Of a stretch of DNA of 64,000 nucleotides, positions 420 to 61,620 are shown piece by piece. Each line of letters opens with the position of its first letter. Position 1 is the first letter of the stretch. The stretch comes from Spinellus fusiger (taxonomy: Eukaryota; Mucoromycota; Mucoromycetes; Mucorales; Phycomycetaceae). Made by a program: the position numbers and the translations under genes. The DNA is taken from assembly GCA_025094145.1 (NCBI GenBank), contig JALLLS010000003.1, positions 124,001 to 188,000 on the forward strand. Direction: 5' to 3'. A model generated the notes under the pieces. The model did not search any database. It saw only the letters and a program-made list of their open reading frames with translations, and was not told the origin of the DNA.

Positions 420-1210
420 AGTATAAGAGTGCAACAGCCTTTATTAGAATGTGTACCTTCTGGTGGTGATCTCCTTGAAGTTCCTCTATCTGTAATAATC
501 ATTAGAATAAAAGAATAACATACAAGTTGAATAAAAAAGAAGGAACAGAATGAATCATACGTTAACTAAACAGATATCTTTGGACATAAGAAGCCATTGA
601 TGACACTATCACATCAATAGAGGATGAACAGTAGCTGATACTATACAATGTTATCAAAGGCTATCCATTTCCTCCTTCTTATTGTATTTCTATCTATTCT
701 TTCTGAACTAAAGATGTTATGTAGCCAACAAGATACGAATAAAGTAAAGTAAATACAATATGCCTATAGAATCAATCTAAAGTTCTTAAATGTGTTTGAT
801 TTCTATAGGTGACTATAGCAAGTCATCCAGGTACGAATCCTACCAGAGTAATGACAATAAAGGGAAAAGACATGCGGAGGATATTGAAGAAAGAAGGATT
901 CAAACTCTATCTTATCAATGAATTCAAAACATCGACCCTATGTCCTGAATGCAAGTACTCACCTTTGGAAACAGTTAAACATATCAAGAACCCCAGGCCC
1001 TATCAATGAACAAAAAATGCCCAAAGTTAAATGTTATGGTCTTCTCAGGTCATTTTTCTCCCTTCAAATAGGTGTTCAAACTAAAATTGTATGAAAGACA
1101 AGACATTGAGGCTTTGAGAATCGTGATCTAGCTGCTACATTGAACTTTGGACATAGTCTAATGTCTCCAAGGGAAAATAGTACCCTCTCATAGTGCTTTT
1201 GTAGATAGAA
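420..1210 (+). pseudogene. Fanzor (TnpB-like) relic, family B, copy 1
   Basis: This is the decayed C-terminal half of a Fanzor RNA-guided nuclease. The clearest part is 809-1008, where the translation shows a GKDMRRILKKEGFKLYLI stretch, then NEFKTSTLCPEC (the first zinc-finger cysteine pair) and NPRPY. These match the same region of the better copy at 34.9-35.1 kb. A second block near 1128-1160 reads NRDLAATLNF, the RuvC-III motif, in another frame. Between them is an AG|GT...TAG|GTG junction (about 1049-1071) at the same codon position as the intron of the better copy. Stops and frameshifts make it non-functional. The stretch 420-1200 repeats in inverted orientation at about 40510-41370. Upstream of 420 I see no further similarity. 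Confidence 0.7.
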
Positions 1211-15847: not shown

Positions 15848-17539
15848 ATGGACTATCATACGAGCAGCAGCCCACAACAGCAGCAGCAACAGATACAGCA
15901 GCAGCAACAGATACAGCAGCAGCAACAAAACGATAACTTGGTAGACCCTGATCAACTGTTGAATTTTGATTCTTCATTCTCTTTTGACCCTCCATTACTA
16001 CTACCAAACACATTCCTTGATGAACCTCTTCCAGAAAACTTCCTTCAGTTTGTCAATGATGGTGCCTCTGTAACTACACCCATAAGCACAACACAGCCAA
16101 TGTCCAGTTCATGTAATGAAGTGAAGAAAGAAGAACAGGCAAAATAATACTTATCCACAAAGACAGCTTCTTTAGGCCAGAAAAGACCCCTTGAAACAGA
16201 GGAGCCTAATGACTCTAGCCTATTTATCATTATTGTAGGTGGATCTCCATTTCGTATCAGCTGGGAGTCTCTCAAGAGTGATGGCCCCGAGAACTACTTT
16301 ACCAGATACTTTACAAAGAAAAAGACCCGTACTATGCACATTGACAGAAGTGCAAAGACATTCGAGCTCGTTGTACAGCATCTGCGTGGTTATCATGTGC
16401 GTCCTGTGGATGATATGCAACACCAGGCGTTGTTGAGTGATTCTTACTATTACCAACTCACCTCTTTAACAAGAGTGCTCCTTGAGTTTCTCTATGTGAA
16501 TGTAGGGGGAAGAGTGTTTAAGGTGTCATGGGACTTGTTTCGTAAAGGTAGATCCGCCCATTGAAGCCCACTCAATCATGTCTAGCAGTCTACTAATCTA
16601 CTGATCTACTAATTAGAAGGAATAAACTTCTTTACAGGTCCATTGATGGATAACATATTCTCCCCTCATTACAAGCCAGGTGTTACTGTCATGTCTCCTG
16701 TCTACATTGAGCGTGATCCCGATCTGTTTGCAGACATCATTAGCCATTTAAGAGGCTATACAATCCAAATCAAAGACGAGGTGCATCGTAGGAATCTTCT
16801 AAAGGATGCCCAGTACTATGTGTTTCGGCAGCTGGCGGATAAGCTTATTACTGCAGACACAGCCCTGGATGGCTTTAGTGACCAGAACAGAGCAGATGTC
16901 CTATTATTACTCACAGATGTCCGCATTCCCAATGTACAGCTGCCCAGAGCAAAAGAATGGGTGCATGGACAATGGAGTGAATGCCAGCTCCAGTATAAAA
17001 AGAACACTACTGTCTATGCACTTCTTGTTCAGCTGTCTGGGTTCTTTGTCCAGGTCCATTACAATGGCAGTTTCTGGGTGTCCATGGATCTGGAAAAGGA
17101 CAGTGACCAGAAGCTAATGAAGATTGCTCAGGCAGTCAAGGCAGCCCAGGTGGATCCCCAGCTCCATATTGACGATACCTGTGCATTGACCATAGATGAT
17201 GGCTCCTGGAGTACATTGGAAGGCCTGTTGACCTGCAAAGGCTGGGAGACATGTCTTCAATGTCCCCACACGTCACAGCATGCACACATGTCGCCCATGT
17301 CACACACCCCGCTCTCTCCACAGCATCCCAAAGACAGTGAGGCTGCACAGGAAAACACCCGCCCACCCATAGTAGGCCACCAACACAGTCCGTGCAAGGT
17401 GCTTAGGCTGGGTGTACAGCGTGCCATGACAGGCCTCTACCTTGTGGACCAATCCCTGGTAATGCGTGGCGTGCGATTAGAAGCCATTAGTTCAAGACGG
17501 CAATTGAATATGAAGCGACCATTTCTACCAAAAGAATAA
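15848..17539 (+). CDS. tandem BTB/POZ (T1/KCTD-type) domain protein, 515 aa
   Basis: Three exons (15848-16112, 16167-16547, 16638-17539) join in phase to 516 codons. Residues 9-28 are a polyglutamine tract from CAG/CAA repeats, followed by a Ser/Pro-rich acidic region. The first BTB domain begins with IIIVGGSPFRISWESL near residue 120 and ends with SDSYYYQL. The second starts with LYVNVGGRVFKVSWDLF and contains VYIERDPDLFADIISHLRG, the typical T1 signature. The C-terminal ~200 residues hold WVHGQWSECQLQY and a His/Pro-rich linker and match nothing I know. Fungal proteins of this kind (for example yeast YLR108C) are BTB_2 proteins of unclear role, possibly oligomeric adaptors. The first intron, 54 nt, removes a TAA that would otherwise truncate the protein. 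Confidence 0.8.
15875..15931 (+). repeat. coding CAG/CAA repeat (polyglutamine)
   Basis: Imperfect (CAGCAGCAACAGATA)n units in the first exon of the tandem-BTB gene. They encode runs of Gln broken by Ile. On the other strand they give false Ala/Val-rich open frames. Confidence 0.85.
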
Positions 17540-18508: not shown

Positions 18509-19309
18509 AAATGACCTGAAAAAAGTAATTTACTCTTTTAAATTCCGAATTGCCTTTGTATATTACACACCTAAAGACTCTCTGGCCTTTAAGCGGTGAT
18601 ATCTCTTTCCTTTTAAGTAAAAGATAATCTTACCTTATATGAAAAATGATTAAAATGATTAAAATCAAAAGATTTGTGGATATTCAGATATTTGTTTCCT
18701 TTTGTAGTATACCTTACTACAAATTGTATTATCAATAGAATATAGTGCTGATGAATAGCATTGTTTATTATAATAGTATAGCTAATAGTATAGTATGACT
18801 ATAGATACTGCCCAAGTGAATTCCCTCATAGCAATAGAATCTATACCTAAAGGCCTTGTGCCTTATCCTTAAGAGATAGATATTTATGCTCAGGAGTATA
18901 CCCTAGACATTATTGACCTTGTAGAAAACCACCTGAGACTGACTTGAAAAGAGTCTTTACTTGCCTAATAACAATGCAATGAGTGTCTTGTGGATTACAA
19001 TAATATCAAGCTTAGAGGAGGACACTGCTTACCTTTTTACTTTCAGAATATTCCTTGGTAGTGTCTATCACCTCCTTCTATTGTTTTTCTTTGTTAATAA
19101 TAGTACATTAACTTGCTCAGTTATGCTTATCTGAACAATTAATTAGGTGTTAAGTTGTATGTGTGGTGTGAGAAATAACAAGATAATAAAAAGACCAAAG
19201 AATAAAAAATATTCTTATTCTGGTGAGGTATATAGTCCCATGCAATAAATGAGTGGACAGCAAATCAATCTTCTATTTTTATTTTACAATTTATTCAAAC
19301 AATGATTCC

Positions 19310-19740
19310 AAGCAATGATAATCATCCAACTCTTAACCAAGAACATGAAGAGAGTCCTAACAGAAGAAGAGATCAGACTATGTTTATTAGAAGTCAAATC
19401 ATAGGATAATGGAAAAGACATGCTACTTATCAAGAGATTTCTGACGACCTTGACATCCCAAAAAGCACAGTGGGCAGGATCGTTCTATTGTATATATATA
19501 GAAAAGGCACAATTCAACTCAAAATACATACAGTAAAACCTGAAAATGTGTCATCTACTTCAAAACTGGAAATACTTTTGTCTATTCGCAGAAACCCTAT
19601 ACAAATAATTGCATTTCATTTGAGAAATATGAATGATGTAAAAACAAGGTTATTTGGTCTGAAGAATCCTGTTTTAAAGTTATGGGCAATGATAAAGGGA
19701 CTAGAGTGATTAAAAATAAAGACTTTGTTACAAAGCACCG
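19310..19740 (+). pseudogene. gutted Tc1/mariner transposase inside Fanzor element copy 1
   Basis: The 5' half encodes a helix-turn-helix typical of Tc1 transposases: ATYQEISDDLDIPKSTVG followed by RKGTIQ. After an internal deletion the frame shifts. It then reads KVIWSEESCFKVMGNDKGT and RVIKNKDF, which is the region of the first catalytic aspartate (here SEES). The middle and the C-terminal catalytic parts are absent, so it cannot be active. The same truncated structure occurs at 32520-32950. Confidence 0.75.
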
Positions 19741-20087
19741 AGTAATCTCTTTATAATAAGAATGTAGACAATCAGTTAAAGAACAACTATTCCAAATCCT
19801 GTGTTATTCCATGAATATTTTATTATGAACATCTTAGACTGATAGATATACCTTTATTTCTCAAAATGAAATAGAAAATAAATTCTGTCCACTCACTCAT
19901 TGTATGGGACTGTATATGTGCATAGAAAACCCATGGGATTCACAGTTTTCATTGATAAAAATACAAACATTATGCTTTAGCACAACTTCTTGGTTTTCGA
20001 ATCACGGATTGAATGAATGGCATGTGAAAACCAATTATAAAACAGAAATAGTATAAGAGAAAGGTCAACTCGTCTTTTCTTTTCTAC

Positions 20088-20430
20088 ATGGAACCTGTTC
20101 TAAAGATTATAGCAGTGAGAAGCTCAATCACTGGTATCGAATAGAAGCCGAATTATTTTTGTCAGGACATACATCTTCAACAGTCAATTGTGGAAGGTTT
20201 GCAAGACACCTCGAGAGAGCCAGAGTCACCCCCAGTATTGCATAACTAATATTCAAATGAAGATACTCCTGCTGTGGAAAACCAGAATTCAATAGCTCAA
20301 TCCCATTTCTTAGAATGAAGTCTTTGATCTTTATTAATCAATAACAATCAGATAAACATCTAACTATTAATAGCCAATCCACCAAAACATATATAAAAAA
20401 GAATCCGGTGTAGTTATCGCTGCACTAAAC
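20088..20430 (+). pseudogene. Fanzor remnant with two internal deletions
   Basis: It begins with ATG at 20088 (MEPVLKIIAVRSSITGI, nearly identical to the copy at 33289). It then jumps directly to the LSLSGHTSSTVNC equivalent, removing about 1.26 kb. After the INQQQSDK segment it jumps again to the last 15 codons (KKNPV), removing about 0.57 kb including the zinc finger and RuvC-III. Stops are present. It is a relic of the same lineage as the full copy. Confidence 0.85.
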
Positions 20431-20931
20431 TAAGATACACAAGTCTTTTTTGAACCATGCTACATTTCTATACTAATTTCCCCAAAAATGCACCAATACT
20501 TTATGAAAATACCTTTTTTAAAACACAATAGCCAATTATAGAAATAATGTTATTTTATTGTCCGCATATTTACTTTTATATCCCAAAAATCTTTAGGTGT
20601 GTCATTAGCCTACTAATAAACCCACTGTTGTGTAGTATCAATACTCTTTTATTTATGTATGGAAGAATTTTCTTTCTATCTAATGAATTCATAAAGTGAT
20701 AACATTATTAAGATAAAGTATAGATATAAAAGAACAACTGAGTTTAAAGAAGAGAATTACTTTCTTCAGGTCACTTTAAAGAAAAAGAGAAGAAAGCACC
20801 CTAGATCACGTGCTGGCTGTAGTGCATTAATATTAAATCATTGATATTTGACTGTCGTTGTCTGGGATTAAATAGTAGAAAAAGAAACGGGATAGCAGTC
20901 TCTTCCATTGACACAACCATCAGTGTGCCTC

Positions 20932-29649: not shown

Positions 29650-31797
29650 ATAAGAATACCATTAAAAGATTTAAGCGTATGAGAAGCTCATAAAATTAAA
29701 CAAACACTAATATCTTTTATTACTATTATTATTATTATTATTATTAAAAAAGAGATCTTAGGCAGAACTTGAATATCTTCCATAACTTTTCATCGTCAGT
29801 AAAAAACTTTTCTTGGTCGTTATACTAAACAGCCTCTGTACCATATACTTCCTTGCCGGCACCAATTCTCATAAACAAAGTTAGTAAAAGTTTATAGTAC
29901 ACTTCTATCTATAACAGCTCTTTTCATAAAAATATAGCTGTATCATTTAGCAACGATCAGCCTATTCATTACTTTTGCACCCATCTATGCAGTGCGTCAT
30001 AGCTGTTGTGTAAAGTGATAAAACTGAGTTAAGATTAGTGATGTTTTTAAAGTATATTGATTACCAATGAAAAGATGAGTGATAATCCCCTTACACCTGG
30101 ATAGTTGGGACTAGAATATAACTTTTCAAAACTTTATGAATTATTTGTTATCTAAGATAATAAATTGATTCTTAGTCATTTGTACTTCAACATGGTCAAA
30201 TCTTATTGTTGAACCCTGTTCACTTTTTGATAACAATAGAAAGTCATAACTTTTTATGCATTTTCCTATAGTGTTTCTGTTATACAATGTCTACATCTAA
30301 TGCTGAATAAATCTTCAAACTGTTTTCAAACCTTAGGAATATTGATTATTTTGATTGTACACTTGTTATAAAAGAGCCAATAACAAATAATATGAGCCAA
30401 ACTGGGGCTGAAGTCATATTCAACCTAACAGCAGGACCATTTACTATATTCTTGAAAAGTATAAAAAGATTTTCATTCCAAATGAAAACAAGATAAACAT
30501 CTTATGAATATTTACATATTCAATCAGAGACAATGGACGTTATTCGAAAGGAAATAAGTATCAAAGTTACAACATCTATATTCTAAGAATAGATGAAAGA
30601 GTTCAGTCTTTTTGTGCCGAGTCATGCGTAAATGTACTCTAGAGAAAAATTAAAAAAGAAATACACAGATCTTTTCATATATGGGCTAAATAGATATAAA
30701 AAGACACCATCATCTAGATGAATAGAGTCCAAAAACCCCAGTAAAATTTTAGGAAGATAACTCTTTATAAAAGGTAATATCAGTTTTATCAACTCTGGTA
30801 TTTTAAATAGTAAAAATTACCCCATTTCTGTATTAAATATAAGGGGGTTATATTTTTTCCATCATTAAGACACCAAAAACTACTATACTAATAAAGAGGC
30901 AGAAAATATAATAGTATTTGTAAACTATAATAAAGAGCTAAAACTTACAAACTTATTGAGCATTAAGTGGTCTTTTACTTGTAAACGAGGTAGACTACAA
31001 TTGCTTTCAATACCATTGAAGAGTTTGAGGTCGATGTGTTGTTGAGTTGAAAAAGAACACTGAATAGAGTCACCAACAGTCTTACTACGATTCACTCATA
31101 GATTCTTTTTATATTTAATAAGCTTTCAATAAATAGATGTTTTACTAATTTTAAAAGGGTTTTATTGTTAAGCTAAAATATCATAAAAATATAGATATAT
31201 AAAAAGTCATAATCAAAAATGCTAAATGTATTTTTGTATGCCACTTTATATTACAGAAATATAGCATTGTGTAGGATATAACTGAATTCTTTGGTGAGTG
31301 CAGCTAATTAAGCCGATATGATTATCCCAGAGTCATTTGTTATATTTCATTTTTCTCTACTGGTCTGAATATGCGGAAAGGATAAATAGCAATAACAGAA
31401 AAAACTACAGTAGATAATTAATAAGGTTCTTCACGTTAAATTGAGAATATTCAGGATGCTATATTCTGACTTGCCATGCTTTTATTTAATAGAAAAACTC
31501 TTTTCAAGAAAGACATAACGTAACACAGTGAAGAGTATCAAACACTCTATTTCTCATTACTATTAGATTTTTCATAATTATGATCTTTCTAAAAACAGCA
31601 TGTAAACTTGCTTTTTCCAAAAGAAAGTGTATGTCAGTTCTAGATAAAAGTTTTTTTACTGAATCTCCATTCTTGGATTAATGGCATATCTATGTTACTC
31701 ATGACTGATATGACTGATAAACATGTGTCTCTCTCTCTCATTTGTGGTACATAAAGCGTTACGTGGAATCTAGTCTTATACTTTGGCAATTTTACTA
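29650..31797. other. AT-rich intergenic DNA
   Basis: Contains an (ATT)n run at about 29720-29747. No protein motif was recognised; small frames are AT-driven. Confidence 0.5.
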
Positions 31798-32516
31798 CAC
31801 ACCAGGAGATTTTTCTGGCTTTTAGGCGGGGATATCTCCTTCCTTTTACGTCTAAAAATTTCTTGCGTTTTATAGAACTGTGTTTAAAATCAAGAGGTTT
31901 GCGGATATCTAAATAATTGTTTTCTTTTGTGGATATCTCAATATCAAATTGTATTATCAGTAAAATATATTGTTTATGAATAAAATTGTTTATTATAATA
32001 GTATAGATAATACTATATTATGACTATAGCTACTTCCTAAGTAGATTCCCTCATAGCAATAGATTCCACACCCTAAAAGCTTTGTGATTTATCCTTGGGA
32101 GATAGATAAATATGCTCAGGAGTATACCCTAGACATTATTGACCTTGTAGAAGACCCCCTAAGACTGACTTGAGAGCCTCTGCTTAATAACAATACAAGG
32201 AGTGTCTTGTGGAATACAATGAGCACAAGCCCAAATGAAGACACTGCTTACCTTTTTACTTTCAGAACAGTCCTTGGTAGTGTCTACAACTTCTTTCTAT
32301 TGTTTTTCTTTGTTAATAATGGCACATTACCTTGCTCAGATATGCTCATCTTGACTAGTACTTGGGCGTTAAGTTGTATGTGCAGTGTGAAAAATAACAA
32401 AATAATAACAACAAAGAATAAAAAATATTCTTATTCTGGTGAGGTAACAGTCCCATGTAATAAATGAGTAGACGGCAAATCAATTTTCTATTTTTATTTT
32501 ACAGTTTATTCAAACA

Positions 32517-32950
32517 ATGAAAATCAACCAACTCTTAGCCAAGAACATAAAGATAGTCCCACCAATAGAAGAGAGCGTGATATGTTTATTAGAGGTCAAA
32601 TCACAGGACAATAGAAAAGATGTGCTACTTATCAAGAGATTGCTGACAATGTCGACATCCCAAAGAGCACAGTGGGCAAGAGTGTCCTATTGTATAAAAA
32701 CAAAGGTACAATTCAACTCAATACATACAGGAAAACCTGAAAAGGTGTCATCTACTTCAAAACTGGCTATCATTTTGTCTATTCGTAGAAACCCTATGCA
32801 AACAACTGCATAAGATTTGAGAAATATGAATGATGTAAAAACAAGGTTGTTTGGTCTGACAAATCCTGTTTTACAGTTGTGTACAATAATAAAGGGACTA
32901 GAGTGATTAAAAATAAAGACTATTACAAAGCACTGAGCAATATCTTTATA
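32517..32950 (+). pseudogene. gutted Tc1/mariner transposase inside Fanzor element copy 2
   Basis: A helix-turn-helix region reads CATYQEIADNVDIPKSTVGK in one frame. After a deletion, KVVWSDKSCFTVV and RVIKNKD appear in another frame, keeping the first catalytic aspartate. The second and third catalytic residues are missing. It shares its internal deletion with copy 1 at 19310-19740, so the deletion predates both copies. Confidence 0.75.
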
Positions 32951-33288
32951 ATAAAAATGTAGACAATCATCTAAAGAACAACAATTATAAATCCTGTGTA
33001 ATTCCATGAACCTTTTATTATGAACATCTTAGACTGATAAATATACCTTTATTTCTCAAAATGAAATAGAAAATAAATCCTGTCCACTCACTCATTGTAT
33101 GGGACTGTATATGTGCATAGAAAACCCATGGGATTCAGAGTTTTCATTGATAAAAATACAAACATTATGCTTTAGCACAACTTCTTGGTTTTCAAATCAC
33201 GGATTGAATCAATGGCATGTGAAAACCAATTATAAAACAGAAATAGTATAAAAAGAAAAGGTCAACTCGTCTTTATTTTATTTTCTTC

Positions 33289-35436
33289 ATGGAGCCTGCT
33301 CTAAAGATTATAGCAGTGAAAAGCTCAATCACTGGTATTGGATGGAAACCGCAGTATCTTTTGCCGCTCAAGACACTTGTATCTATTGTCCATATTCTTG
33401 TAACGCATACATTCGCTTTTCTAAAGTACATATTCATTCAAGAATTGGAAAATAACCCTGCCTTTGCTCTGGAGGATTTTGCCAATGTTGATTTTTACAG
33501 TGAAGTCTTTTTGTCGCTTCTTCAGAGTTACAAGCCAAATAGACAAGCAAATTCTTCAAAGTCAAGAACCAACCGAGAACTTATCAACAGACATCGAGAC
33601 ATGTACTTTCAACACAGTCTATATGAGCCAGTCAGTTTAAAGTATGTCTTTCAAATAGCCATGTATGAAGCAAGGAAAATAAACACAGTGTACCTCAATG
33701 GTGTCTCATTACACTTTGGAAACAAGCTGCGCATGTTCTTAAACATACTTTTGAAAAAGAATGAACGAATAAAGACAGTAAAGGAAGAAATGAAGAAAAA
33801 GGGCAGCACAGAGATGGAAGTATCAGCTGCAGTAAAGGATATTGTTGAACAATGCAGTAGAATCAAAACAGCCATTTCGTCTGGAAAAATCGACAATCTA
33901 CCAAAAGAATTCCTCTCTACTCATGATATTGATATGATTCATGATATCTTTAGCTCTTATCCCATGAACTATCAATTTTCCAAAACTCTATTTACTATGA
34001 CTGCAAAGCAAACACCCCAAAGCATCTGAAGGCTTATTATAAGCTATCAAGCATGTGTGAAGTCCTTCAAGACAAGCCTTTCAACTGTTTTTCGCTGAGA
34101 AGAACATTCATACCATCTTATATGACAATAGATACGCGTATATTGAACACCCATCTATTGAAAAGACCTATTATCAGCCATTTGGACAAAGATAGAGTGT
34201 GGGGGGCTGTTATTGATACCACAACAAAAGCAATGAAGCTACAGGGTGAAAGAAATGCAATGAAGTTTAGGGGAATGGTAATGACTGACGGTGTTGGTGT
34301 ATCTGTGTTGAAACAAAACCATGATACAAAGAAAAGTGGCGGTGGAAGAATCAAGAAAGAAACAAAAGAACTCGATGAATTCCAATACATTGAAGATTTG
34401 GGGAAAAAGAATTGGCAGCTAGTATCGGCAAGTGTGTATTGATTGACCCTGGTCGTCGTGATGTACTTTATTGCATGCATGAAGATAGCACTGTAGAGAA
34501 CAAAAGAACATATCGATACACTAGCAATCAAAGTGCAGTTGAAAACAAGTCAAGAAAGTTCAGGAAGCTCCGTGAGAACTTGAAGCCTGATGAAGTGAAA
34601 GCAGCCGAGTTGTCTCTATCAGGACATACATCTTCAACAGTCAATTGTGAAAGGTTTGCAAGATACCTTGAGGAAAGAGCCAGAGTCAACCCAGTGTTGC
34701 ATAACTATTATTCAAATGAAGATACTCCTGCTGTGGAAAACCAGAATGTCAATAGCTTGATCCTATTTCTTAGAATGAAGCTTTTGATCTTTATTAATCA
34801 GCAACAATCAGACAAACGGCTAGCTAGAAATCTTCGAAGAAAGTTTGGCGATGATGCTGTAATGGTGATTGGCAATTGGTCTGTAGGAAACACAAAGTTC
34901 CATGAACCAGTGAGAGGTGTTGGAATAAGAAGAATGTTGAAGAAAGAAGGGTTCAAGGTGTTCCTTATTGATGAGTTCAAAACATCTATTTTTTGTCCTT
35001 CTTGTAAGAACGGTGAGCTTGAGAAATTCAAGAAAGTACAAAACCCAAGACCCTTCAGAAGAGAGAAGAACCCCACAGTGACATGTCATGGTTTTTTAAG
35101 GTAAAAATACTCTTCTTTCTTCTATAAAAGTCAAAGAAAAGACTAGTTAGTTTATTATTTTTATTTTTATTTAGGTGCAAAAACCAACAATGTTTGAAGA
35201 TCATGACTAAAACTGCTGGAGTTTCTGATGAGATAATTTCTCAACGCTTTTGGAATCGGGACATGGCAGCAACATTGAACTTTCGTCATGTTCTTTTTGG
35301 ACTACGAGAGGAAGGCAAGCGACCCAAGCGCTTTTGTCGATCCAAGACAGTACAGTCTGTTGGTACCAAAAGAAAGGAGACACCATTAGCTAGTAGTAGC
35401 CGACCTACCAAAACATCAAAAAAGAATCCGGTGTAG
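33289..35436 (+). pseudogene. Fanzor RNA-guided nuclease (TnpB homologue), near-complete, two frameshifts
   Basis: Fanzors are eukaryotic TnpB-like nucleases that use an RNA from their own element to cut matching DNA. This gene starts at ATG 33289 and has an N-terminal KIIAVKSSITGIGWKPQYL region typical of the family. RuvC-I follows as CVLIDPGRRDVLYCM (near 34430-34480). Next are an IGNWSVGNTKFHEP segment (about 34870), LKKEGFKVFLIDEFKTS (about 34940-34990) and a C4 finger with FCPSC and LRCKNQQC. RuvC-III is FWNRDMAATLNF near 35250. The tail is basic (KTSKKNPV). A 74 nt GT-AG intron (35101-35174) splits the finger. Two -1 frameshifts interrupt it, near 34012 (in CCCC) and near 34405 (after GGGGAAAAAG). 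The gene is either recently dead or the breaks are homopolymer errors. With them corrected the length would be about 690 aa. Confidence 0.9.
35101..35174 (+). other. intron splitting the Fanzor zinc finger
   Basis: GTAAAAATAC...TTTATTTAG, phase 2, between LR and the CKNQQC cysteine pair. Removing it restores the C4 finger and the RuvC-III motif in one frame. The same position has an AG|GT...TAG|GTG junction in the family B relic at about 1049-1071. Confidence 0.75.
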
Positions 35437-35689
35437 TTATCGCTACACTAAACCAAGATACACGTAAGTCTCTTTTGAACCATACTACATTTCTATACTA
35501 TAATTTCCCCAAAGATGCACCAATACTTTACGACAATAGTGTAGCTATTGCTAGAATAGGCAGACAGAGTTTGAAATTGTTCATTTAGACAGCGAAAATA
35601 CCTTTTTAAAACACAACAGCCAATTAGAGTAATAGTGTTATTTTATTGTCCGTGTATTGACTTTTATATCCCAAAAATCTTTAGGTGTG
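35437..35689 (+). ncRNA. candidate guide-RNA (omega/fRNA) region of Fanzor element
   Basis: The 250 bp between the Fanzor stop and the right terminal repeat is non-coding. It is conserved in copy 1 (20431-20601), which lacks 67 bp in the middle, and its distal part is also conserved in copy 3 (35750-35915, inverted). In TnpB and Fanzor systems the RNA scaffold usually comes from this side of the element, with the guide read from beyond the right end. Conservation despite coding decay fits, but no transcript or fold has been examined, so this is an inference. Confidence 0.35.
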
Positions 35690-35749
35690 TAATTAGCCAC
35701 CCCCTTTTTTCGGTTGAACAAAATTAAGGAGAAATTTAATTCTTGTCTA

Positions 35750-36927
35750 CACACCAGGAGATTTTTGGGATATATAAGTAAATATTCTGAGAATAAAATT
35801 AATATATATGATTGGCTGATGTGTTTTAAAAATCTTTTCGATGTGTAAATAAACTATTTCAAACTCTTTTTGGCTGTTTTAGCAGTGATGATTGACTGCA
35901 ATTAAACGCCATAAAGTTGAATATAAAAGGAAGAAATGAGACTAATGTTTAAACCCAGAAAATGAATCTATTGTTTAACACAATATGTTATTATTAAATC
36001 CACAGTATTTACAGTATGACTGCTTGAGAAAGGCTTATCATAAGACACGCTGAATTGACTCTAGTGGCCATTGTCCGAAAATAGAAGCAAGTTTACTTAT
36101 ATTAAGAGCAGTATAGTCATTGATTGAATCAGTATTCATCATCAACTCAGTAACTATGTTATTGTAACTCGCATTAACAATGGTGCTTAATGATAACAGT
36201 GTATTGTTTTTAATACTGTCCTTTAAGCCCAAGACAAAAAGAGTGTGAGTTGTTTGACTTGTAAATTTGACTTTTGGATTTTAAGAGTTGAGGCTATAGC
36301 GTAAAAGATTACCAGAATAATAAATGAAACATTATTTATTACGATATTTTCCTCTTTTCGTTATTTCCCACACTACACACAACTTGATACTTAAGTACTT
36401 GTCAAGATGAGCGTAACTGATCAAGGTAATGTGTTACCATTAACAAATTAGAACAATAGAAGAAAGATGTAGACACTACCAAAGGCTATTCTGAAAGTAA
36501 AAAGGTAAGTAGTGTCTTCATCTGGGCTTGAGTTCAATATATTCCACAAGACACTCATTGTATTGTTAATAAATAAAGACTCTTCTCAAGTCAGTCTTAG
36601 GTGGTCTTCTACAAGGTCAATGGTGTCTAGGGTATACACTTGAGCCTAGTTATCTATCTCCTAAAAAGAACACAAAGCTTTTAGGTTGTGGATTTTATTG
36701 CTATGAAAGAATGCACTTAGGCAGTAGCTATAATTATATATTTTTATATTATTTATAAACATTTTTTTTTATTGATAATACAATGATATTAAGGTATTCT
36801 ACAAAAAGAACTAATAATTTGGATACTCATAGACCTTTGATTTTAAAACATCGAGATATAAAAAAGGTATACACATTCTTTAAATATAATATGTATTACC
36901 TCTTAAAAGTCAAAAAGTTCTGGTGTG
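35750..36927 (-). mobile_element. Fanzor-less deletion derivative of the element (copy 3, inverted)
   Basis: The ends are CACACCAGGAGATTTTT at 35750 and GGTGTG finishing at 36927, both flanked by TA. The right 680 bp (36250-36927) is the inverse complement of the left arm of copy 2 (31798-32400). The left 165 bp (35750-35915) is the inverse of its right tail. The middle (about 35920-36240) is not in copies 1 or 2. It lies tail to tail with copy 2, only 60 bp away. Confidence 0.8.
36038..36240 (-). other. unexplained open frame inside Fanzor element copy 3
   Basis: A 64-residue frame beginning MGLKDSIKNNTLLSLST and ending SIFGQWPLESIQRVL. Its amino-acid composition is balanced, not purely AT-driven, and the stretch is absent from the other two copies. 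It may be a captured host exon or debris of another element. The GLK start is not supported by any promoter or splice evidence. Confidence 0.25.
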
Positions 36928-40436: not shown

Positions 40437-40509
40437 TATGACTGAAATAAACTTATAGGTGTCTTAGTTTTTTTTTTAAAATAAAGTTGAAAGCATTATG
40501 TTTTCTTTT

Positions 40510-41370
40510 GTTATACCTACAAAAGCACTATGAGAGGGTAATATTTTCCCTTGGAGACATTAGACTATGTCCAAAGTTCAATGTAGCAGTTAGATCACAG
40601 TTCCAAAGTCTCAATGTCTTGTCTTTCATACAATTTTGGTTTGAACATCTTTGATTTTAAGTTGATATGAACCCAAAGATCAACATTTTCGCCTGTATAG
40701 CTTATGTTTTTTCATGATAGGGTGGTTGTGAATATTTTTGCTTTCATGGATATATATTTGTTGATCATTAGATAGTTTGATTGGAGTGTAAGACGCATAT
40801 TGACATCAGTCATCTTTTAGTAGGTTGATCTTCTCGCTTATTTCACACATCTTGAGTGAGACTTGTTTTACCAGAATCACTACTCTGATTTGTTTGTTAA
40901 CGAGGGAAAAAAACACCTCACAGAAGAGACTATTGGTTATGCACCCATTCAAAGCAGATTCATCTTTACTTTCGAGTAGATAGATCAAGATATACTTAGA
41001 TAATGCATAAGTATGAGAAACAATAGTATTGATGTTATGGACCAGATCTTACAAAACAGTTAAATGTTCAGAACTTTAACCAGTATCGCGTAAAGATGTC
41101 TTGATTGTTATTATTATGGCAGGATTGTTATATGAAGAACTTGCTAATAACATTGAATAGTGTCAGCTATTATTTATCATCTATTGATGTGATAGTGTCG
41201 TCAATAGCTTCATAGGTCCAAAGGTATTGGTTTAGTTAACGTACGATCCACTCTGCTCTTTTTTATTCAACCTGTATGTTATTCTTTTATTATAATAATT
41301 ATCATAGATAGAAGAACTTCAAGGAAATGACCACCAAAAGGCACACATTCTAATAAAGGCTGTTGTACTC
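40510..41370 (-). pseudogene. Fanzor relic, family B, copy 2 (inverted)
   Basis: The complement of 40520-40640 repeats 1079-1200, and that of 41160-41370 repeats 430-680, with clear base-level similarity. The RuvC-III block is present only in degenerate form. The middle part (40700-41100) differs between the two copies, so one of them has a replacement or large indel there. No frame survives. Confidence 0.65.
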
Positions 41371-61059: not shown

Positions 61060-61620
61060 ATGAACAGATTTAAAATAACTACGGTCAAATGCTCTGTCTC
61101 TAGACTCAGGTGGAAGCCTGAATATCTACAATCATTGAGTAATTTTGTGTCTAATGTCAATACACTCATTAGACATACCTACATTCTCACAAAATATGGT
61201 TTTATTAATAAGCTAACTAGAGATATGGATGTTGATCTGGAACGTTATGCACAGCTATATTTCTATACAGAAGTGTTCTTGGCTCCAAAAAAAACAGTAC
61301 ACTGTTCAATCACACTTATCTCGGAAAGTATAAAATTTTAGAGTTATCGAATGTTACAAACAAGATGATTGTCAACTCGTTCATGACAACCACTACATCT
61401 CGGCTATTTACAGCAGATAGTATGTGATACATATGCAAAGAGAAATACTAAACATCTTCTGAAAAATCTATCGATGGGGTCTATAAAACATTTTCTTGAT
61501 GTGTACGATGTGAACTATAAGTTTGATGAAGATAATATTCATTACTACTGAAAGTCAAACAAAAACACACGTCAAGAATTACTACAAATGATTGCAGATA
61601 TATAAAAATCTTGAAGTTGC
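61060..61620 (+). pseudogene. Fanzor N-terminal relic, family C
   Basis: From ATG 61060 one reads MNRFKITTVKCSVSRLRWKP and then NFVSNVNTLIRHTY. LERYAQLYFYTEVFLAP follows, which aligns in order with the N-terminus of the copy at 33289 (VDFYSEVFLSL). After that, frame breaks occur; the part 61400-61560 still shows RYVIHMQREILNIF, similar to the GNKLRMFLNILLKK region. RuvC parts are absent. Confidence 0.6.

Follow-up and report, generated by a model that had tools for sequence, protein, structure and literature searches.

What a Fanzor, a eukaryotic RNA-guided nuclease, does for the transposon that carries it is the question raised by a locus of the fungus Spinellus fusiger, of the mucoralean family Phycomycetaceae; the biological role of Fanzor is stated as unknown in PMC10432273 (here and below, the cited papers are represented by their accessible portions). 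The locus is a 3,892-bp element at positions 31798-35689 of a 64,000-nucleotide stretch of contig JALLLS010000003.1 (C121:124001-188000 in our numbering; this whole stretch is called the window). We compared the element with the 38,076,753-base (38.1-Mb) assembly, over which all genome-wide counts were made. A reading frame of the window (16613-17536) is 100% identical to the S. fusiger protein BDF14DRAFT_711574. The element is a defunct copy of an S. fusiger transposon of the Tc1/mariner type, with a Fanzor1 gene and little left of its transposase. Most copies of its family have the bases TAC, mostly as TTAC, before the left target-site TA and not before the right one. We consider it probable that this TTAC is the trace of a target-adjacent motif (TAM) through which Fanzor had the element copied back into its site; the single steps of this process we infer.

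The ends of the element could be placed exactly to the base. CACACC opens it at 31798, GGTGTG closes it at 35689, and a TA stands on each outer side (31796-31797 and 35690-35691), just as an earlier note on this DNA, made from the letters alone, had read them; the sister copies end at the same TA. The terminal inverted repeat (TIR) is short and imperfect. Comparison of its left (CACACCAGGAGATTTTT, 31798-31814, plus strand) and right (35673-35689, minus strand) ends gave a match at 14 of the 17 outermost bases. A genome-wide search for the terminal repeat, as the note had suggested, found the pattern TACACACCAGGAGATTTTT with up to two mismatches at 692 + 679 = 1371 places and a reversed control pattern at none; the repeat is thus no product of chance. 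The description of the locus as self-contained did not hold, as transposase and nuclease are both broken and the element is one among these 1371 end matches.

The nuclease gene was analyzed with the help of a sister copy (locus L010) that is 93% identical to the window element and whose exon of 479 uninterrupted codons we call P0001. In the window the Fanzor gene is near-full and lies on the plus strand in three pieces (33289-34026, 33981-34436, and 34397-35433) with two frameshifts, matching P0001 at 81-91%. The amino-terminal piece is an open frame with its first ATG at 33289; the middle piece, in another frame, was located by tblastn with residues 106-254 of P0001. The RuvC part of the third piece extends from 34397 to 35100 and is followed by a GT-AG intron of 74 nt (35101-35174), the match to the homologue P0002 resuming at 35173. 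Reading frames and tblastn then give a carboxy-terminal exon with the stop codon (35175-35436). The window copy retains the split RuvC D/E/D set and the carboxy-terminal zinc finger in DPGRRD (34445-34462), DEFKTS-x(2)-CPSC (DEFKTS at 34970-34987, CPSC at 34994-35005), and the RuvC-III motif WNRD (35251-35262); the catalytic residues are assigned as in PMC10432273. When the sister exon was aligned with PpFz1 and SpuFz1, its DPG and DEFKTS fell on DPN and DEYKTS of SpuFz1.

Because the Pfam TNB profile matched the window pieces weakly (0.0086), the protein was identified by searches of PDB and of homologous proteins. With E-values up to 1, P0001 matched three PDB sequences, every one a Fanzor1: PpFz1 of Parasitella (6.4e-128), SpuFz1 of Spizellomyces (1.3e-44), and GtFz1 of Guillardia (2.6e-7). 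It has 243 homologues, of which 120 were listed; the named ones are all fungal, and the closest among those listed, from Rhizopus, cover 95-100% of the exon at 65-66% identity. The match is thus strong, where the earlier note had allowed for a search that found nothing, and its central proposal of a near-full Fanzor with RuvC-I, zinc finger, and RuvC-III on a TA-flanked Tc1/mariner-type element is supported. No uninterrupted full Fanzor gene was found among 11 sequences examined by tblastn. The dN/dS ratio had a median of 0.44 over 90 of the 91 pairs formed by 14 copies (the pairs are not independent, and one pair without differences gave no ratio), which shows purifying selection on the Fanzor exon during the spread of the family.

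Of the Tc1-type transposase a remnant is left at 32510-32959 (plus strand), found by tblastn with sister-copy and window pieces and consisting of helix-turn-helix (HTH) pieces at 32510-32728 and 32721-32837 and one first DDE piece at 32849-32959. The broken transposase had been recognized in the note, and together with the two frameshifts in the Fanzor gene it bears out the decay described there. The sister copies hold a like remnant, and the family was therefore probably mobilized in trans.

The element belongs to a family, here called family A, whose members, complete or shortened by deletions, occupy different sites. Three other near-full copies (C110:204201-208110, C142:114179-118100, and C145:246002-249941), 91-93% identical to the window element, match it from 4 bases left of the left TA through the right TA; the number of sister copies is a lower bound, 40 of 1930 first-look candidates having been scored. 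In two sister pairs the similarity ends no more than 5 bases from the TA: two derivatives on contig C79 (L026 and L028) share 99.0% identity across the element and 4 further bases and differ beyond them, and L010 and L011 are 97.9% identical, with a likeness that reaches 5 bases past the element at the left and with different flanks. The window itself contains a second, deleted copy (18566-20601, plus strand), the left part of which is about 85% identical. Deletion derivatives are mostly 2.1-2.8 kb long. They have retained the left end, and all but L034 and L038 also have at least 283 bp of continuous sequence at the right end; L033, a longer copy, also lacks a block in its right end. The 2.1-kb derivatives L019, L021, L023, L024, L027, and L037 are ghosts in the sense of Saito 2023, with TAC at the left, the right 283-300 bp, and the Fanzor frame reduced to short pieces. 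Among other derivatives of the 2.1-kb type, L038 reads ATAC and L036 reads TCTC.

The left flank was examined in 22 two-ended family-A elements including that of the window, that is, in 30 loci minus the duplicate L031 and minus L013, L015-L018, L032, and L035, which have no usable end. TAC precedes the left TA in 17 of these 22 elements, in 13 of them as TTAC; in the window TTAC occupies 31792-31795 on the plus strand, and we propose these as TAM bases. Read outward, TAC precedes the right TA in none of the 22 (Fisher test, 7.7e-8). If L032 (TAC, left end only) and the window's second copy at 18.6 kb are added, the count becomes 18 of 24. By Fanzor content, TAC was found in four of six near-full copies and in 13 of 16 deleted ones.

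An insertion into a host repeat made it possible to see the target before insertion. The flanks of L020, joined at the TA, align uninterrupted to the paralogues L053 (83%) and L027 (75%), which both read CTAC-TA-AT. A pattern search, with a fixed spacing that the alignments to L053 and L027 did not impose, gave 67 uninterrupted copies of the host repeat, these two included. The bases before the TA are CTAC in 56 of them, ATAC in two, CCAC in two, CTAA in five, ATAA in one, and CTAT in one. Since the empty copies hold TAC before the TA, TAC was part of the target at the L020 site and TA alone was duplicated. The earlier note had looked to empty sites for different boundaries; empty copies turned up for one insertion site, and they agree with CACACC/TA. 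When nine joined flanks were searched in the genome, junction-spanning matches were obtained for L020 alone (40 of 553 candidates scored). The target of L020 is an abundant repeat with the site CTACTAAT, present at the 67 places (e.g. C3:48966 and C27:7584). An L039-type transposase stands near one of its copies (L053), and the repeat may itself be a transposon.

The left motif was also counted in a second class of elements. The strongest TNB matches (L001-L008) are followed after about 280 bp by a different right end, AGGAGRTCTTTAGGATA, which occurs at 225 + 202 places. For this family B we took the 100 left ends at the head of a listing of 677 and paired them with the AGGAGRTCTTTAGGATA-type right ends listed on contigs C1-C57 (427 genome-wide) lying at most 6 kb away; one of the 25 pairs was removed because its left end is that of L029 of family A, leaving 24. 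Of the 24, 18 have TC or CC immediately before the left TA and two before the right TA; none has TAC before the left TA. Families A and B agree in their outermost bases, and for L005 and L006 the left ends are 78-84% alike over roughly 110 bp from the terminus; the subterminal right ends of the two families differ. Judged from its TNB exon, family B appears to have a distinct Fanzor; a frame of 150 aa upstream of this exon gave no match in PDB. The family-B motif tracks the class of the right end, the part in which a guide RNA would lie, and does not depend on whether the gene is present; short derivatives show it most clearly. With all families taken together, C stands before the TA at 72 of 100 listed left ends and at 26 of 95 distinct listed type-A right ends, and TAC at eight of the 100 listed left ends.

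A mariner transposase selects TA and handles the joining of its two ends nearly alike. A motif that is confined to the left and switches with the right-end class under constant outer ends points to a filter which reads the left flank in the manner of a TAM. In working copies, an omega RNA from the right end would take the flanking DNA as guide, and Fanzor would cut the empty site left by transposase excision, or an unoccupied sister or homologous site, after which repair would copy the element back at the cut. As this re-copying would require a TAM left of the TA, insertions with TTAC at the left would persist and come to dominate the surviving copies. Derivatives without Fanzor would be served by nuclease supplied in trans. 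The analogy is with SPu-1 of Spizellomyces punctatus, in which a conserved CA precedes the left repeat, the TA duplication is putative, the TAM of SpuFz1 is CATA, and ghosts have the same CA (PMC10432273). By this analogy the predicted TAM would be TTACTA or an inner part of it for family A and YCTA for family B. We also suggest, more tentatively and with somewhat more doubt than belief, that there are two Fanzor-linked families with shared mariner-type outer ends, the insertions of each having been sieved by a nuclease and a guide RNA of that family, with TTAC-TA for A and YC-TA for B.

The alternative that survives best, which we nevertheless think unlikely, is that the transposase itself prefers such targets: its transposome would be asymmetric and read TTAC-TA or YC-TA via the left end, which would give the one-sided motif without any role for Fanzor. 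C is likewise enriched before the TA at right ends, in 48 of 99 family-B right ends and in 39% of those of a third right-end class, as if the machinery favored C-TA. A two-sided preference for C therefore also exists, and part of the motif signal may come from a transposase preference for this base. In family B the motif is found in 14 of the 15 elements that lack a listed TNB match and in four of the nine that hold one, and is thus stronger in the former; the two families, with their different subterminal right ends, could be moved by different enzymes. On the other hand, the shared outer ends go together with different left motifs, as the counts for TAC in families A and B show, and the right ends lack the motif though the inverted repeat there is nearly the same. 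The third class also shows little of either motif, TAC and TC or CC each being found in one of seven paired elements, in a small set in which the absence of Fanzor is not confirmed for each element.

A less probable alternative, to which we give little credence, is that Fanzor is a passenger or a regulator, for example damping the transposase, and that the nuclease was never used at its own site. TnpB-like proteins have been proposed to regulate transposition. Many copies that had no working Fanzor have spread, and our analyses gave no support for a guide RNA, as set out below, both of which suit this view. It leaves the class-dependent left motif unexplained, as well as the purifying selection and the retained D/E/D motifs. 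That the element is longer at the left, with TAC or C internal to its left end and a TA duplicate further out without a motif, is very improbable, for although sister similarity reaches 4-5 bases past the left TA in some cases, family B has other bases at the TAC position and this placement is contradicted by the empty copies of the one insertion site, where TAC precedes the TA in 58 of 67.

Several observations weigh against Fanzor re-copying as the source of the motif. Five of the 22 family-A elements (L014, L022, L028, L033, and L036) do not have TAC at the left, L028 in spite of being 99% identical to the TAC-bearing L026, and the second copy in the window reads TAT. In a looser, coordinate-paired set with the type-A right end, TAC was found in three of 10, one of them being L029, already counted, and family membership in this set is unverified. 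TAC is also present at two of the 95 listed right ends. The distribution of the family-B motif over copies with and without a TNB match, and the raised C at position -1 of family-B right ends, count on the same side, as does the absence of the motif from the TNB-bearing family-B copies L005 and L006, which read GC and CT at the left. The Fanzor-bearing copies of family B with their weak motif may be older, or may speak against re-copying. The nearest tested enzyme, PpFz1, has the TAM ATN, unlike TTAC-TA (PMC11423790).

The right end gave a mixed picture. Its 3' non-coding part (35437-35689, plus strand) is retained in most deletion derivatives and is the candidate place of a guide (omega) RNA. 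The most conserved stretch in the alignment of copies is GTGTAGCTATTGCTAGAATAGGCAGACAGAGTTT at 35539-35572. Per-site diversity fell to 0.006 at 35557-35571, compared with 0.126 over 35437-35660 with the block left out, and 35 of 5000 column shuffles gave an equally conserved 53-column window (23 of 24 rows in both cases). The conserved block of about 55-60 nt is missing from L033, L034, L038, and the window's second copy (20505-20601), though these stand at different sites, and movement may thus not absolutely require it. Naming it omega RNA would be premature because sequence related to 35539-35572 also occurs in L039 and in short elements without a Fanzor match, which is a further point against the re-copying proposal. 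The same applies to the results of the RNA searches. The 253-nt 3' region folded no better than shuffled sequences (z of -0.47 for the window copy and +0.35 for L010), consensus folding of the region revealed no covariation or compensatory change, and Rfam gave no match to it.

If Fanzor did act in this manner, the surviving insertions would record its natural activity, including the rescue in trans of nuclease-less copies, and would show directly that a eukaryotic cut-and-paste transposon is helped by Fanzor to retain its copies. With outer ends that are shared, right ends and Fanzors that differ, and hundreds of insertions in a single assembly, TAMs become predictable from flanks before biochemistry.

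The nearest known case is SPu-1 with SpuFz1 (Bao and Jurka 2013, PMC3627910; Saito 2023, PMC10432273), which resembles the Spinellus family in its Fanzor1, its TIRs, its putative TA duplication, its conserved bases before the left repeat, and its nuclease-less ghosts that keep ends and flank motif. The two differ in several respects. No transposase is reported inside the SPu-1 repeats in the accessible text, whereas the Spinellus element retains a Tc1 remnant; the SPu-1 flank reads CA-TA instead of TTAC-TA; SPu-1 is 2.1 kb long with a single open frame and intact copies, whereas the Spinellus gene has an intron and no intact copy among those read; and the second right-end class with the same outer ends and another motif is found in Spinellus, unlike SPu-1. 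The closest solved relative is PpFz1 of Parasitella parasitica (PDB 9cf0; PMC11423790), with an E-value of 6e-128 over the exon. An insertion of about 100 residues in PpFz1, taken as the FRI, is missing in the Spinellus exon (gap between query residues 357 and 361); the FRI is reported for Parasitella and Rhizopus alone (PMC11423790). The Rhizopus Fanzor1 proteins (P0002, P0003, and others), compared by protein only, are named hypothetical or uncharacterized protein or transposase at source. PUl-4, a Fanzor-only Mariner element (PMC3627910), is similar in having a Fanzor1 without transposase, Mariner-type ends, and TA duplications; it has a different host and presumably different ends, and no flank motif is mentioned for it in the accessible part of that paper.

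In the open-licence literature we found no paper on Fanzor in Mucoromycota as such, PMC11423790 as the only one for Mucorales, and none on transposable elements of Spinellus. The kind of element is thus already known from SPu-1, and the family, the host, and the population evidence are new within the literature searched. Both halves of what the earlier note had said about precedent agree with this: Fanzor in Tc1/mariner-type elements is described, with SPu-1 and its ghosts as the example, and the family it found unfamiliar is new as far as searched.

Other transposases of the genome were considered as mobilizing partners. The HTH piece of the window remnant matches at least 150 places, and the longest open frame listed among its relatives encodes 368 residues at C154:44.4-45.5 kb (L073, C154:43800-45800), with DDE_3 and HTH domains and a spacing of 36 residues from the second D to the E. 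This protein was rejected as partner of the family: no pair of the family's ends occurs in the 3.7 kb around the frame, and a single left-type end begins downstream and points away. It may belong to an element of another family that could still be active. Locus L039 carries a DD34E Tc1 transposase between TACACACC ends at 278 and 2931, its DDE_3 match containing one stop, and related frames free of stops are present in L042, L046, L047, and L048. The window remnant belongs to a different Tc1 group than the L039 transposase.

The genome is rich in Fanzor sequences. The TNB profile matched at 150 places with E-values up to 0.001 (150 of 457 candidates scored; inverted duplicates included), compared with 42 Fz loci, full or partial, that PMC10432273 reports from S. 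punctatus on a different way of counting. The window contains four more Fanzor relics, at 809-1205 (plus strand), 20141-20365 (plus), 40507-41123 (minus), and 61069-61284 (plus). Many copies come in pairs on a single contig, inverted to each other and equal in score (e.g. C79:264 kb/298 kb, C122:46 kb/50 kb, C94:5 kb/10 kb, and C172:96-111 kb), with flanks that are identical in some (C94, C189) and different in others (C79); these may be inverted duplications or an assembly effect. Beside the element, at a distance of 56 bp and inverted, lies a short relative (35750-36927, minus strand) whose ends are of the same kind and in which no Fanzor match was found; its flanks read CTCA at the left and TGTC at the right, not TAC.

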